From: Actinoallomurus soli
GTDB lineage: Bacteria; Actinomycetota; Actinomycetes; Streptosporangiales; Streptosporangiaceae
Direction: 5' to 3'
NCBI RefSeq assembly: GCF_024055715.1
Contig: NZ_JAMXMV010000015.1
Location: forward strand, 124,001 to 188,000
DNA: 64,000 nt
The position numbers and the translations under genes were made by a program. Shown here in pieces: positions 151-35,041 of this stretch; the stretch's first letter is position 1; the number at the start of each line of letters is the position of its first letter. The notes under the pieces are model-generated. The model was not told the origin of the DNA. It saw only the letters and a list, made by a program, of their open reading frames with translations, and ran no database searches.

Positions 151-1158
151 GTGGCGAACCGCGATGACCAGGGACGACGGCCCGAACGGTGGCCGGTCCG
201 GCGGCGTCCGCGGACGCGCTGGGCCGAGCAGGAGCCGACCGTCGGCCAGGCCGACGCCGCGGTGATCGGCGCGGCGCTGAAGCGGGCGCGGGCGCGGCCC
301 TCCGGGAACTGGTTCGCCGTCGCCCCGAGCGGTGAGGTACGGGCGGACCGGCCGCTGGGACTCCGGGTCCTCGGCAGGGAGCTGGTCGCCTGGCGGGACC
401 GGGCCGGCGCGGTGGTGGCCGGGCCCGGTGCCTGTCCGCACCTGGGCGCGCCGCTGGCGCATGGCCGGATCGTCTGCGGCGACCTGGTCTGCCGATGGCA
501 CGGACTGCGGCTGACCCCGGACGGCGGAGCGGGCTGGCGGCCGCTGCCCTGCCATGACGATGGCGTCCTGACCTGGATCCGGCTCGACCAGGCCGGTGAG
601 GAGCCGTCGCCCCGGCCGGTGCTGCCCGTCCGGCCGCGGCCGGCGCGCAGCCTGCACGCGGTGATCCGGGCGGTGGGCGCGTGCGAGCCGGAGGACGTGG
701 TCGCCAACCGGCTCGACCCGTGGCACGGCGCCTGGTTCCATCCGTACTCCTTCACCCGCCTGCGCGTGACCCGCGTCCCGCCCGACGGCGCCGGGGACAT
801 CGACGACCGGTTCCTGGTCGAGGTCACCTACCGCCTCGGCCCCCGGCTGGGCGTGCCGGTGCTGGCCGAGTTCACCTGCCCCGAGCCCCGGACGGTCGTG
901 ATGCGCATCGTCGAGGGCGAGGGCGCCGGCAGCGTGGTCGAGACGCACGCCACCCCGCTCGGGCCCGGCCGGGACGGCCGCCCGCGCACCGCGGTGCTCG
1001 AGGCGACGATCGCCACCTCGGAGCGTCCCGGGTTCGCGGTCGCGCGGGCGGCGGCCCCGGTCGTACGGCCGCTGATGCGGCGTGCGGCGACCCGCCTGTG
1101 GCGCGACGACCTCGCCTACGCCGAACGCCGCTACGCCCTGCGCGCCGGAGCCCTCTGA
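151..1158 (+). CDS. Rieske [2Fe-2S] protein next to carotenoid genes
   Basis: The 335-residue protein has a Rieske cluster-binding pair, CPHLGAPLAHG then CRWHGL, at roughly residues 95-120, giving two Cys and two His ligands for a [2Fe-2S] centre. The C-terminal half has no motif I recognise beyond resembling the DUF5914-type proteins found beside actinobacterial carotenoid genes. No signal peptide is visible, so it is probably cytoplasmic or membrane-peripheral. The GTG start at 151 follows an AGGAGG-type ribosome binding site directly. The gene converges on crtU, whose end lies 48 bases away. I infer an oxygenase or electron-transfer step that modifies the carotenoid end group, but no substrate can be read from the sequence. 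Confidence 0.8.
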   Translation: MANRDDQGRRPERWPVRRRPRTRWAEQEPTVGQADAAVIGAALKRARARPSGNWFAVAPSGEVRADRPLGLRVLGRELVAWRDRAGAVVAGPGACPHLGAPLAHGRIVCGDLVCRWHGLRLTPDGGAGWRPLPCHDDGVLTWIRLDQAGEEPSPRPVLPVRPRPARSLHAVIRAVGACEPEDVVANRLDPWHGAWFHPYSFTRLRVTRVPPDGAGDIDDRFLVEVTYRLGPRLGVPVLAEFTCPEPRTVVMRIVEGEGAGSVVETHATPLGPGRDGRPRTAVLEATIATSERPGFAVARAAAPVVRPLMRRAATRLWRDDLAYAERRYALRAGAL

Positions 1159-31357: not shown

Positions 31358-31451
31358 GAAAAGCACCGTACCGCATCCGATCCAGGGTGATGCGTGACAT
31401 AGGACACACAAGCCCTGGCCGGCCACGTAAGGGCACCGGGCGAAACCGCTG

Positions 31452-31661
31452 TCAGCGGCGTCGCCGGTTGGTGCGGACGGCCGCGATGACGGCCGCGATG
31501 ATCATGATGGCCAGGATGCTGAGGCCGATGGTGGCGGCCTGGTGACTGTAGTGCGGGAAGCGGGCGACCACGGTCCGGGCGATGGAACGCGCGGTGACGG
31601 CCGGAGCGGCGAGCCGGATCTGGACGGCCGCCGCCGCGATCCCCGCCGTCGGGAGGGCCAT
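31452..31661 (-). CDS. Small membrane protein, unknown function
   Basis: A 69-residue protein with one clear C-terminal membrane helix (IGLSILAIMIIAAVIAAV), ending in a basic TNRRRR tail, which suggests a cytoplasmic C-terminus. The N-terminal half is Ala/Arg-rich. ATG 31661 is preceded by GAGG; a longer upstream extension is possible. It is minus-strand, upstream of the flotillin operon, with the operator region between. No family recognised. Confidence 0.5.
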   Translation of the reverse strand: MALPTAGIAAAAVQIRLAAPAVTARSIARTVVARFPHYSHQAATIGLSILAIMIIAAVIAAVRTNRRRR

Positions 31662-31727
31662 GACCTCATCGTCACGCCGCCTCCGTATAGGCAGGGTTAT
31701 CGCTGGGCTAACGATGTATGGGGCAGG

Positions 31728-31757
31728 TTGTCGCACTTGCGGGCGGCGACTTACGCT
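31728..31757 (+). promoter_or_regulatory. Probable promoter of the M-box transcript
   Basis: TTGTCG (31728-31733) and TACGCT (31752-31757) are separated by 18 bases. Transcription would start near 31764, about 10 bases before the riboswitch aptamer. Confidence 0.55.
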
Positions 31758-31773
31758 TTGGGCAAGCAGGCAC

Positions 31774-31929
31774 CTCGTTAGGTGAGGCGTCTGTCCGGAT
31801 ACAGGCCGCTGACCCCACGACGTCGAGAGACGCCCAGGGTCAGGACACCTCTCCCCGGCTTAAGGGGACAGGCCAAGTGGCTTCCCTCGATGGGAGGGAT
31901 ACGCCGGGCAGTGCCAAAGCTCTTACGAG
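31774..31929 (+). promoter_or_regulatory. M-box (ykoK) magnesium riboswitch
   Basis: The conserved M-box blocks appear in order: CTCGTTAGGTGAGGC, GGATACAGGCCGCTG, a GTCGAGAGACGCC hairpin, CCGGCTTAAGGGG, then GATACGCCGGGCAGTGCC and AAAGCTCTTACGAG. The first and last blocks pair (CTCGT with ACGAG) to close helix P1. M-box RNAs bind Mg2+ and switch off Mg2+ transport genes when magnesium is plentiful. Here the aptamer precedes a PRC-MgtE_N-CBS gene and an NRAMP-family transporter by about 320 bases. Confidence 0.95.
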
Positions 31930-31981
31930 ACGCGGAGGGGTGCGGAGCGTGGCCCGACGGGCGGCACCCTGTCATGGATGC

Positions 31982-32005
31982 GGCGGCGTGTGGACGCACG
32001 CCGCC
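31982..32005 (+). terminator. Hairpin downstream of M-box, possible expression platform
   Basis: A 9-base-pair GC-rich stem (GGCGGCGTG with CACGCCGCC) and a 6-base loop lie 53 bases after the aptamer. A weaker GGGTGC/GCACCC hairpin precedes it at about 31938-31970. Either could be the Mg2+-dependent terminator or an antiterminator partner. There is no U tract. Confidence 0.5.
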
Positions 32006-32027
32006 TGGACCGGGCGGAGGTGAGGAC

Positions 32028-32099
32028 ATGTCCGGCAGTAGTCCGGGGCGAGATCAGCCCCCTCACGGCGTGTCCCGCATTCGTTCCGGTGCGCGGTAG
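32028..32099 (+). CDS. Possible 23-residue leader peptide
   Basis: A short open frame with a very good ribosome binding site (GGAGGTGAGG, then ATG at 32028) encoding MSGSSPGRDQPPHGVSRIRS plus three residues. It has a PP pair and three prolines in all. Pro-rich leader peptides sense Mg2+ in the enterobacterial mgtA and mgtCBR leaders. A similar ribosome-stalling role downstream of the M-box is a hypothesis only. Confidence 0.35.
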   Translation: MSGSSPGRDQPPHGVSRIRSGAR

Positions 32100-32153
32100 C
32101 GCTTCCCGATCGGGCATGGCCGCCGGGCGGGAAGCGGCTGACGTGTGCCCTTG

Positions 32154-32174
32154 ATGGTCCCGGAACGGGACCAT
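32154..32174. promoter_or_regulatory. Perfect hairpin/palindrome in long leader
   Basis: Arms ATGGTCCCG and CGGGACCAT flank a 3-base loop, 77 bases upstream of the MgtE_N-type gene. It could be an RNA hairpin of the riboswitch leader or a DNA operator. Confidence 0.45.
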
Positions 32175-32250
32175 GGAGGGAGTCGTTCGTCATGGTCGAA
32201 CAGGAACCGGCCCTCGCCGGTCGCCGGCCCGTCGGGTCCGGAGGCCGGTG

Positions 32251-33600
32251 ATGGGGCGCCAGGGTCTTCTCGCGGCGGTGCCACGGGCGGTACGGCAGCG
32301 CTACGGGCAGCGCAACGGCCGCCTGACCCGGAGGCATTCGGTGCGCCAGGCGCTGATCCCGCTGGCCGGGCTGGTGGGCCGGCCGGTGGTCAACCAGGCC
32401 GGCCAGCAGATCGGCCGGCTGGTCGATCTGGTCGCCCGCTGGAACGGCCGCGAGACGTATCCCGCGGTGACGGGCCTGGTCGTCCAGGTCGGCCGACGCC
32501 GGTCGTGGGTGCCGTACGAGGTCGTGAATCAAGTGGAGCCGCAGGCCGTCACGTTGCGCAGCGCACGTCTCGACCTGCGGGAGTTCGAGGAACGCCCCGG
32601 CGAGGTCGCCCTGGCGACGCACGTACTGGACCACCAGCTCGTCGACATCGAGGGCGTGCGGGTGGTGCGCCCGTCCGACCTGTACCTGACACCGGTCGAG
32701 GGCCGGTTGCGGCTGGTGGGCATGGACACCGGGCTCGGCGCTCTGGCACGCCGCCTGGGGCCCGCCCGCTGGCGCAGGCGTGCCGTCCCGGAGCAGGTGA
32801 TCGACTGGTCGGACGTGCAGGCGTTCGGCGGTCCGGCGGGCCGGGGCGGAGCCCGGCTGGCGGCGCCCCGCGCGGAACTTCGCCGCCTGCACCCCGCCGA
32901 GCTGGCCGATCTCCTGGAGGACCTGGGCCGCCCCGAGCGCCGTGAACTGCTCGATCTGGTCGGCCCGGACCACGCCGCCGACGCCCTGGAAGAGATGCGC
33001 CCCGACCAGCTGGAAGAACTGCTGACCGAGGCCGATCCCGGCCAGGCCGCCGGGTTGGTGGCCCGGATGGAGCCCGACGAGGCCGCGGACGCCCTCCGCG
33101 ACCTGGACGCCGAGCGGCGCGCGCTCCTGCTCGCCCGGCTCCCCGAGCAGACCAGGTCGACGGTGTGCGACCTGCTCGCCCGGCAGGAGGACTGCGCGGG
33201 CGGGTTGATGACCACGACGATCATCCGGGTGCGGCCCGAGCAGACCGTCGCACAGGTCCGGGACCTGCTGACGGCCGAAGGCGTGCACATCGCCGACATC
33301 GACGCCGTCGCGGTGGTCGACGAGAACGACCGCCTGCTGGACGACGTCATCCTCGGCGAGCTGCTGCTCGCCGATCCGGGCACCACGCTGGGAGAGCTGG
33401 TCGGCCCGCCCTGGCCGATCACCCTCCGGCCCGAGGCGGGCCCGGCCGAGGTCGCGACCCGGCTCGCCGAGTCACGCCGCCTGTCGGTGCTGGTCGTCGA
33501 TGAAGAGGAACGCCCCCTCGGGCGGATCCTGGCCGATGACGTGGTCGACATGCTGCTGCCCGAACGGGGCCGCCTCCACTTCCCCCGGGTGCTGTCATGA
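32251..33600 (+). CDS. PRC-barrel / MgtE_N / CBS regulatory protein
   Basis: A 449-residue soluble protein. Two PRC-barrel-like segments span about residues 38-180. An MgtE N-terminal superhelical domain follows at about 210-310 (LHPAELADLLEDLG, then MEPDEAADALRDL). A CBS pair covers about 310-445, opened by the MgtE-like AGGLMTTTIIRV. It has no membrane channel domain, so it is the Mg2+-sensing half of MgtE used as a separate protein. ATG 32251 has GGAGG six bases upstream; an earlier ATG at 32173 lies in the hairpin. Its stop overlaps the transporter start, implying an Mg2+-gating partner for the NRAMP-type protein. Confidence 0.88.
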   Translation: MGRQGLLAAVPRAVRQRYGQRNGRLTRRHSVRQALIPLAGLVGRPVVNQAGQQIGRLVDLVARWNGRETYPAVTGLVVQVGRRRSWVPYEVVNQVEPQAVTLRSARLDLREFEERPGEVALATHVLDHQLVDIEGVRVVRPSDLYLTPVEGRLRLVGMDTGLGALARRLGPARWRRRAVPEQVIDWSDVQAFGGPAGRGGARLAAPRAELRRLHPAELADLLEDLGRPERRELLDLVGPDHAADALEEMRPDQLEELLTEADPGQAAGLVARMEPDEAADALRDLDAERRALLLARLPEQTRSTVCDLLARQEDCAGGLMTTTIIRVRPEQTVAQVRDLLTAEGVHIADIDAVAVVDENDRLLDDVILGELLLADPGTTLGELVGPPWPITLRPEAGPAEVATRLAESRRLSVLVVDEEERPLGRILADDVVDMLLPERGRLHFPRVLS

Positions 33601-34925
33601 CCGCCCGGCACACCGCACCCTCCACGACCGGCCCCGGCCTCCGGGCGCCCGCCGGCCGGGCCGCCCCGACCGGCGGGAACCGGCCCCGCAGGAGCCCTCG
33701 GCGGATGCTGATCACGGCGCTCGCGTTCGCCGGGCCCGGGCTGATCGCCGCGAACGCCGGCAACGACGCCGGCGGGATCGCCACCTACGCCTCGGCCGGC
33801 GCGCAGTTCGGCTACCGCACCCTGTTCGTCATGCTGCTGGTCACGGTCGGACTCGTGGTCGTCCAGGAGATGTGCGCCCGGCTCGGCGCCTACACCGGCG
33901 AAGGACTGGGCTCGCTGATCCGCGAGCAGTTCTCCATCCGGGTCACCGCGTTCGCGCTCGTGGCGTTCCTGGCCGCCAACGTCGGCCTGGTCGTCTCCGA
34001 GTTCGCCGGCATCGCCGCCGCCTTGGACCTGGTCGGCGTCGGCCGGTACGTCTCGGTCCCGATCGCCGCCGTGGTGATCTGGGCCCTGGTGGTCTTCGGC
34101 TCCTACCGCTACGCCGAACGACTGTTCCTGATCCTGTCGCTGGCGTTCCTGTCCTACCCGATCGCCGCCGCCCTGGCCCATCCCCAGCTCGGGAAGGCCG
34201 CGAGCCAGACGATCTGGCCGCACCTGCTCGGTTCCAAGGCCTTCCTGCTGCTGACGGTCGCCCTGATCGGCACCACCATCACCCCGTACATGCAGTTCTA
34301 TGTCGCCGGAGCCGTCGCCGACAAAGGGATCGGCCCCGCCGACTACCGGGCCGAACGCATCGACACCGTCGGCGGCGCGATCTTCGCCGACCTGATCAGC
34401 ATGTTCATCATCATCGCGACCGCCGCCGCCATCCGCACCCGCGCCCCACTGGACACCGCCGCCCAGGCCGCACACGCGCTGGCGCCGGTCGCCGGCCGCT
34501 TCGCGGAGCAGCTGTTCGCCCTCGGCCTGCTCGGTGCCTCCGCCCTGGCCGCCGCCGTCGTCCCGCTGTCGACCGCCTACGCCATCAGCGAGGCCGCCGG
34601 GGTCGAACGCAGCGTCGGCCGCCGATTCCGCGAAGCGCCCCTGTTCCTCGGCCTGTTCACCGCCCAGATCTTCATCGGCGCCGCCATCGCCCTCATCCCC
34701 GGCAACCTCATCCACCTGCTGATCAACGCCCAGCTCCTGAACGGCATCATCACCCCGATCCTGCTCACCTACGTCCTGGTCCTCGCAGGCCGCAAGCGGC
34801 TGCTCGGAGACGCCGCCAACGGGCCCGTCCACCACCTCATCGCCACGATCTGCGTCGCCGTCGTGGCGATCATGGCGGCGACCGCGCTGATCATCACCGT
34901 GCTCGGCTGGTTCGGCATCGCATGA
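33597..34925 (+). CDS. NRAMP-family transporter with altered metal site (NRMT-like)
   Basis: A 442-residue transporter with about eleven membrane helices. Canonical NRAMPs bind transition metals through DPGN in helix 1 and an MPH motif in helix 6. Here helix 1 reads AGNDAGGIATY (residues about 54-64) and helix 6 reads TTITPYMQF near residue 227, so the Pro-Gly-Asn and the metal-binding Met are replaced. Loss of that Met marks NRAMP-related Mg2+ transporters. The M-box and the MgtE_N partner support Mg2+ transport independently. ATG 33597 overlaps the upstream stop (ATGA). The Mg2+ substrate is a strong inference. Confidence 0.88.
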   Translation: MTARHTAPSTTGPGLRAPAGRAAPTGGNRPRRSPRRMLITALAFAGPGLIAANAGNDAGGIATYASAGAQFGYRTLFVMLLVTVGLVVVQEMCARLGAYTGEGLGSLIREQFSIRVTAFALVAFLAANVGLVVSEFAGIAAALDLVGVGRYVSVPIAAVVIWALVVFGSYRYAERLFLILSLAFLSYPIAAALAHPQLGKAASQTIWPHLLGSKAFLLLTVALIGTTITPYMQFYVAGAVADKGIGPADYRAERIDTVGGAIFADLISMFIIIATAAAIRTRAPLDTAAQAAHALAPVAGRFAEQLFALGLLGASALAAAVVPLSTAYAISEAAGVERSVGRRFREAPLFLGLFTAQIFIGAAIALIPGNLIHLLINAQLLNGIITPILLTYVLVLAGRKRLLGDAANGPVHHLIATICVAVVAIMAATALIITVLGWFGIA

Positions 34926-35041
34926 CCCGGGAAGCGCCTCGGCCTGAAGGCGCGTGACATGGGACACACCGGGTCTTCTCCGTCGGCCGCGATTACTGGC
35001 TGGCTGTACAGTCAACATCCTTCCCACGAGAGGAGCCGCGC

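Follow-up and report, generated by a model that had tools for sequence, protein, structure and literature searches.

NrmT genes, encoding Nramp-related Mg2+ transporters, have been described under M-box control together with an adjoining gene for a partial MgtE (its N-domain), to which the available text of that paper assigns no role (Shin et al., 2014; PMC4072509). In the same text, these M-boxes occur mostly in Clostridia and Deltaproteobacteria and switch by intrinsic termination. The M-box of Mycobacterium tuberculosis pe20, as far as its published description was available, works by a translational platform and Rho (D'Halluin et al., 2026; PMC12810186). The operon analysed here comes from an actinomycete, Actinoallomurus soli (family Streptosporangiaceae), and lies in a stretch of 64,000 nucleotides, called the window hereafter (RefSeq assembly GCF_024055715.1, contig NZ_JAMXMV010000015.1, positions 124,001 to 188,000). 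It consists of an M-box, a leader with a small open reading frame (ORF), gene A for an MgtE-like cytosolic protein and gene B for an Nramp carrier (Table 1). The operon is a further member of the described, little-studied Mg2+-uptake system, which it extends to another bacterial branch; the leader is its new part.

The reading favoured here, at a probability of about 0.6, is an M-box OFF-switch for a Mg2+-uptake operon, acting mainly through translation of the leader ORF. At low Mg2+ the aptamer would be loose, the leader ORF would be translated from the second Shine-Dalgarno (SD) sequence of the leader, SD2, transcription would continue, and gene A and gene B, the latter probably a proton-independent Mg2+ carrier, would be produced. 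At high Mg2+ the aptamer would close, SD2 would be held by an anti-SD sequence downstream within the leader ORF, the ORF would stay untranslated and the transcript would probably be cut short by Rho. A Rho-dependent stop is proposed because a consensus scan of positions 31400-32400 found no intrinsic terminator, and by analogy with the available account of the pe20 leader (PMC12810186). Gene A would most likely provide a second, protein-level Mg2+ check on gene B. Transmission from aptamer closure to SD2 is the step for which the model holds no supported candidate.

The M-box operon and its carrier

The aptamer matches the full RF00380 model (positions 1-169) at 127.5 bits (E 3.1e-28), the gathering score being 44, and it is the sole M-box found in the 9.4 Mb genome. 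This search was the check named beforehand by an earlier sequence-only reading of the window, which had placed an M-box at 31774; the riboswitch is indeed there, its aptamer beginning 7 nt earlier. Mg2+-dependent folding and control of the downstream genes are predicted from this match. The sequence-only reading had also proposed a two-gene operon with an ATGA overlap and an Nramp-family membrane component; the overlap is present at 33597-33600, and gene B matches Nramp with 270 bits (Pfam). Its combination of an M-box, an Nramp-type and probably Mg2+-transporting carrier and a detached MgtE-domain gene is likewise supported, and an Nramp protein as the membrane component is no surprise, since that combination had already been published (PMC4072509). 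The earlier observation is thus confirmed and its interpretation partly supported; it made no mention of the ORFs that the leader carries between the aptamer and gene A. Compared with the NrmT operons as described in that paper, the window shares the M-box, the gene with an MgtE N-domain and the adjoining Nramp-related Mg2+ transporter, whereas it differs in its actinomycete host, its leader ORF, the PRC-like part of gene A and the intrinsic terminator, of which none was found.

The best solved relative of gene B is EleNRMT (7qia, 355 bits), followed by MntH with 64 bits. Among Nramp proteins, DxxN-A/CxxM has been given as the signature of Mn2+/Fe2+ carriers and DxxG-TxxA/T as that of the NRMT branch (PMC8806188, as available). 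Gene B carries NDAGG and GTTITPYMQF, that is DxxG-TxxT, and has the NRMT signature: DxxG, TxxA/T, no Met and no helix-6b His, the two His positions being read by eye as Tyr and Val. With EleNRMT it shares DxxG and the Thr at helix-6 position one, but position two is Thr in gene B (TTIT-PY) and Ala in EleNRMT (TTIA-PW), whose transport is reported in the same text as uncoupled from protons (PMC8806188). Because EleNRMT is the best match and the site residues are those of NRMT, gene B fits the Mg2+ branch of Nramp, and we infer Mg2+ as its substrate. The other Nramp protein of the genome has DPGN and MPH, as in the ordinary Mn2+/Fe2+ type.

In gene A, MgtE_N (75.9 bits) and CBS (42 bits) each exceed the Pfam cut-off. 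The PRC domain that had been read from the sequence as well stayed below it (15.8 against 21.2 bits, E 0.015, residues 41-94), and the label PRC-like is fair because 7 of 33 aligned homologues, the window excluded, match PRC at E<=0.01 (best 2.9e-5). Gene A is not a full-length MgtE, its model being without the membrane part, and the NCBIfam mgtE model TIGR00400 gave 80.4 bits against a cut-off of 232.75, over model positions 24-252 of 450 only. An AlphaFold2 model built from 33 sequences (mean predicted local distance difference test score 82.6, predicted template modelling score 0.65) matches the MgtE cytosolic domains 2oux and 2yvy in Foldseek. With the MgtE channel of these structures, gene A shares the fold of MgtE_N plus CBS pair and most Mg2+-site acids, but it lacks the membrane part, stops where the plug helix would come next, has Arg at D226 and carries an N-terminal PRC-like half. 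A PHROGs search gave no match for gene A.

The cytosolic Mg2+ sites of MgtE have been assigned to D91/D247 (Mg4), D226/D250 (Mg5), D95 (Mg6) and E59 (Mg7) (PMC5882242, as available). In an alignment of 33 of the 73 available gene-A sequences, the positions of D91 and D247 are Asp and those of D95 and E59 acidic in 33/33. A sensor role of gene A is plausible from these residues, perhaps with an altered response. That gene A may gate gene B is a proposal of the sequence-only reading; according to the available text of PMC4072509, Mg2+ rescue was no better when the two Acidobacterium capsulatum genes were expressed together. Should such gating be demonstrated, gene A would represent a detachable Mg2+ sensor that controls a carrier from a different family.

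A second PRC-like, MgtE_N, CBS protein is encoded in the same genome away from the M-box (locus L004, about 973-2196) and is 30.7% identical to gene A. Since some match to gene A occurs in 292/297 genomes of the family, this protein looks like a housekeeping paralogue.

The leader ORF and SD2

Of 82 distinct leaders, the window included, 77 have an SD-led ORF of 15-60 codons about 60-195 nt past the aptamer core, and dinucleotide shuffles of those 82 stretches held a mean of 9.0 such ORFs (maximum 12). A small leader ORF looks like a reusable part of actinobacterial M-box switches. The published account of this ORF, as available, is confined to mycobacteria: uORF2 (upstream ORF 2, Rv1805A) was termed mycobacteria-specific, with a conserved proline at position 7, from nine representative genomes (D'Halluin et al., 2026; PMC12810186). 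Leaders of the genus g73, called Mycobacterium-like here from their leaders and M-box number, begin MSSSDSPGRSPN... and fit that description of uORF2. A core SPGR is common to many family leaders (MDSDSPGRSRP...) and the window (MSGSSPGRDQPP...). A covariance model of the SD2-ORF region, R1, matched 0/8 g73 leaders at E<=0.01 and one at E 0.33, which counts against simple homology.

The window leader resembles the M. tuberculosis pe20 and rv1535 leaders, as described in the available text (PMC12810186), in having SD1 near the aptamer end, SD2 with a short ORF some 100 nt beyond it, and no canonical intrinsic terminator. There, the anti-SD was put between SD1 and SD2, whereas SD2 of the window type prefers sequence downstream, inside the ORF; and while the uORF2 peptide was termed mycobacteria-specific, a similar ORF is found here outside that genus. 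The leader offers a different anti-SD location; judging from it, the short ORF known from mycobacterial M-boxes probably occurs more widely and is in part an RNA element. At the aptamer end of the window, a short ORF with GGAGG resembles the mycobacterial SD1/uORF1, a weak likeness seen by inspection.

The downstream preference of SD2 was found in several comparisons. In the window, the duplex of SD2 with the predicted anti-SD2 has -26.5 kcal/mol, and 7/125 foreign segments do equally well or better. Across 77 leaders, the 75 nt that follow SD2 raise its opening cost, with a mean z of 0.95 against dinucleotide shuffles (in 19/77, at most 3 of 60 shuffles are as high), and the preceding 36-76 nt hardly do so (mean z 0.11, 6/77); g73 leaders taken individually show little effect. 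In a permutation test, duplex energies with a leader's own segments were compared with those of other leaders within its class (n=126, near-duplicates removed). SD2 paired with its own downstream segment at -20.99 against a permuted mean of -20.43 (sd 0.15), 0/3000 permutations doing as well; the halves gave 14/3000 for the family (n=50) and 18/3000 for the others (n=76), and the preference was strongest at +30..+55. It recurred across classes, with 0/2000 in 55 and in 15 leaders and 0/3000 in 79 newly fetched ones. Within the same energy-based test (n=126), SD2 had no cognate preference for the upstream spacer (2363/3000), and neither SD2 with the first hairpin nor SD1 with its upstream sequence was significant. 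Kinship among leaders may inflate this test; the other segment pairs, passed through the same procedure, fall short of the significance of SD2 with its downstream segment.

Two further pairings were tried and rejected. SD1 with the upstream spacer gave 0/3000 as long as the segments overlapped by 3 nt, possibly through a shared local hairpin, and 2365/3000 once they were separated. GUGCC of the aptamer core with GGCAC of the platform was considered as an ON state: GGCAC is present in 42/77 leaders (mononucleotide shuffles: mean 8.6, maximum 19), and cognate preference reached 7/3000 across classes in 95 non-family leaders. This pairing was dropped because no preference appeared in the family (1434/2000) or within classes (1810/3000), and because GGCAC is kept in leaders without an aptamer.

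A GGGCC/GGCCC hairpin lies at the same place within the ORF of family leaders, where 86% of its cells are paired in the register of the alignment; the hairpin of the window is offset by one column. Further downstream, the short ORF coupled to gene A is preceded by a 9-bp hairpin and an SD-like sequence.

Competing accounts of the leader

R1 gave 44 matches in 38/240 family genomes, two of which, L405 (genome G162) and L406 (G097), lie in genomes without an M-box match, as does the BLAST-found L364 (G255). Rfam found no RF00380 at E<=0.1 in these three loci. By eye, L406 retains an apparent decayed 5' piece of an aptamer, and L405 and L364 show none; an NRMT-like gene follows the module in all three. 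Such aptamer-less leaders are natural controls for the M-box-linked ones. The SD2-leader-ORF could be pictured as a portable, self-sequestering module in which about 23 codons hold the start site, the kept frame and the anti-SD. It would accompany actinobacterial Mg2+-transport genes and work with or without an M-box; it may itself sense Mg2+ or the state of translation, with the aptamer as an add-on sensor. We hold this wider picture tentatively and with some doubt.

Whether peptide or RNA is conserved was approached through the ratio of non-synonymous to synonymous differences (pN/pS) in close leader pairs picked by nucleotide distance alone. For codons 2-9, non-family leaders gave 0.29 (976 pairs, 104 leaders; other frames 1.74 and 0.85) and family leaders 0.84 (75 pairs, 39 leaders; other frames 1.02 and 1.07); codons 10-21 gave 1.21 and 1.10, respectively. 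Earlier non-family values of 0.24-0.26 came from groups chosen by peptide motif and are biased low. On these comparisons, protein-level conservation is accepted for codons 2-9 of the non-family leaders. For the family of the window, a conserved leader peptide was not accepted (1.00 in 21 leaders; 0.94 for codons 2-9 in 22 leaders; 0.84 over the 75 pairs). All leaders that have the block AG[TA]CC (38/57 family and 88/95 other leaders) carry it in the frame of the start codon, and the GGCAC block near the ORF end lies outside the commonest frame in 10/42. From these ratios and block frames, the first third of the leader ORF behaves like a reading frame, which is clear only for the non-family leaders, and the remainder behaves like RNA.

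Several results weigh against the proposed switch. The opening-energy test gives no significant result for the window by itself (10/60). In an alignment of 40 of the 57 available family leaders, the SD2 helix has a covariation score of 0.187 against 0.179 in shuffles (sd 0.006; 55/500), and 71.2% of cells are paired against 70.2% (sd 0.5; 9/500). Counting pairs in which both sides have changed gives 384/500, and RNAalifold finds 5 pairs, none compensatory; one arm of the helix is purine-rich and the other pyrimidine-rich. No ON-state pairing partner was found among the leader segment pairings tested. The ORF persists in L364, L405 and L406 although they have no aptamer, so the module is more than a platform for the M-box. 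On the protein side, the Mg5 site keeps Asp at the D250 position but has Arg at the D226 position in 33/33 gene-A sequences, and the A. capsulatum NrmT was judged likely to be a Mn2+ transporter (PMC4072509, as available).

Some of these points would also fit a different account, in which composition and relatedness give rise to the pairing of SD2 with its downstream sequence, and the switch works through some other platform that has gone unrecognised. Covariation does not exceed shuffles, no aptamer-linked competing helix was found and leaders of a class are related, which can inflate a permutation test; this account is nevertheless rather doubtful, as the preference reached 0/3000 within classes over 126 de-duplicated leaders, held in both halves, was repeated across classes in newly fetched leaders and was not shared by the other segment pairs. 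Alternatively, the leader ORF may itself be the Mg2+ sensor, of the MgtL/CorL kind, with the M-box as a second layer: a nascent peptide with many Ser, Pro and Asp residues near its N-terminus would disturb or slow the ribosome at low Mg2+ and open the operon. MgtL is a leader peptide that acts on the ribosome in this way at low Mg2+. The selection on codons 2-9 in the non-family, mostly Mycobacterium-like leaders, the constant frame of AG[TA]CC and the ORF kept in three leaders without an aptamer speak for such a sensor, but the window's own family shows little selection on these codons and the proline is absent from several close relatives of the window leader (L162: MSERNWGRSRL...), and we regard it as unlikely.

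Quite improbable is a gene B that is mainly a Mn2+ or multi-divalent-metal carrier, merely tuned by the M-box to Mg2+ status. The A. capsulatum NrmT beside a partial MgtE fully rescued a Mn2+-transport defect, and it rescued a Mg2+ defect only when Mg2+ was in the low millimolar range (PMC4072509, as available), and EleNRMT also carries Mn2+ (PMC8806188, as available). Gene B, however, has a DxxG-TxxT site with EleNRMT as its best match, stands under M-box control and coexists with a separate DPGN/MPH-type Nramp. The OFF-switch acting through the leader ORF is retained as the preferred reading.

Table 1. Features of the operon in the window and of three leaders without an M-box match (positions in the respective locus)
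Feature	Position	Strand	Evidence
M-box Mg2+ riboswitch aptamer (RF00380)	31767..31941	+	127.5 bits, full model
SD-like GGAGG at aptamer 3' end with 24-codon GTG short ORF	31949..32023	+	seen in sequence; weak
SD2 and start codon of leader ORF	32012..32033	+	GGAGGTGAGGAC-ATG
Leader ORF, 23 codons (MSGSSPGRDQPPHGVSRIRSGAR)	32028..32099	+	covariance model R1, 53.1 bits, the window being one of its 40 training rows
Hairpin GGGGC-loop-GCCCC inside leader ORF	32045..32061	+	sequence, family alignment
Predicted anti-SD2 inside leader ORF	32067..32086	+	duplex with 32012-32033, coordinates derived by hand from duplex output
Further short ORF (MVEQEPALAGRRPVGSGGR), coupled to gene A by a stop-start TGATG	32192..32251	+	seen in sequence
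Gene A: PRC-like, MgtE_N, CBS; cytosolic Mg2+-sensor-like protein	32251..33600	+	Pfam, structure model, homologue alignment
Gene B: NRMT-type Nramp, predicted Mg2+ transporter	33597..34925	+	Nramp match, EleNRMT match, site residues
SD2-leader-ORF without M-box match, L364	1472-1566	-	BLAST
SD2-leader-ORF without M-box match, L405	about 440-505		R1
SD2-leader-ORF without M-box match, L406	about 647-721		R1

Distribution and genomic slot

The best 80 of 439 gene-B relatives are 57-73% identical over aligned columns, and the DNA fetched with them contains a gene-A match in 78/80. None of the 80 showed an M-box in a strict motif scan that recovers 56/58 known family M-box loci (72/78 have at least 600 nt before gene A), and Rfam found none in the 26 of them, plus 7 family loci, that were searched. 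Gene A at about 50% identity or more occurs in 7/296 other family genomes, none of them in the genus; all 7 also have gene B, and none has an M-box. Two of the 7 are loci L010 and L015 by their match figures, giving 85 distinct A/B loci besides the window, none with an M-box, six of these being cut before or nearly before the leader. R1 had no match in 39 A/B-relative loci.

An M-box occurs in 54/297 family genomes, 53 of them over the cut-off. A different Nramp gene, with 32-46% identity over the matched part and the orientation of the M-box, is present at 35/57 orientable family M-box loci, and the window's A/B type was found at none of these 57 (58 fetched, several short). The window leader is closest to such family leaders, with 81% over 318 nt to L157, and these mostly precede the other NRMT-like type. 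Synteny with the closest-leader loci was considered and rejected, the flotillin-like neighbour lying elsewhere in 5/6 genomes and not being found in the sixth.

In congener G003 both flanks are conserved (flotillin-like and NfeD-like genes on one side; bPH_3, TetR and hydrolase genes on the other), and the slot holds an unrelated large ORF instead of the M-box operon (window 31408-34996 against L354 1507-4884). We take this ORF to be perhaps DUF4157-like. In two further congeners and one other family genome, the left flank alone was matched in the 10 kb taken. As conserved flanks enclose a variable slot, the M-box cassette is accessory at this site. The two genes left of the M-box have no Pfam match, and a consensus scan of positions 31400-32400, which covers actinomycete promoters poorly, found no sigma-70-type promoter.

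Outside the family, 23 of 126 M-box loci, mostly from g73, have an Nramp gene in the downstream DNA that was available; 23/23 carry NDAGG, and all 21 that are long enough carry GTTVAPW, which corresponds to the NRMT site. Loci L222, L257, L260 and L262 are examples of such Mycobacterium-like, M-box-controlled Nramp genes with the NRMT (Mg2+) site rather than the Mn2+ site. In three g73 loci, L358-L360, an M-box, an MgtE_N-CBS gene about 33% identical to gene A and an NRMT gene follow in the same order as in the window; two of these loci are also represented in the set of 126, and the third was fetched on purpose. The M-boxes called Mn2+-type in the available text of PMC12810186 may correspond to these NRMT loci, although the names could not be matched. 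Such mycobacterial loci may control NRMT (Mg2+) transporters, in which case the label may need revision.

In five family loci (L122, L124, L125, L133 and L143), the M-box and leader ORF precede a gene whose product is hydrophobic and about 60 residues long (MTITISVPF... and similar). By its motifs, the gene behind the M-box and same-type leader ORF of L164 is presumably MgtC-like, and the aptamer-less module of L364 is preceded by what we take to be an ArsR-like regulator gene.

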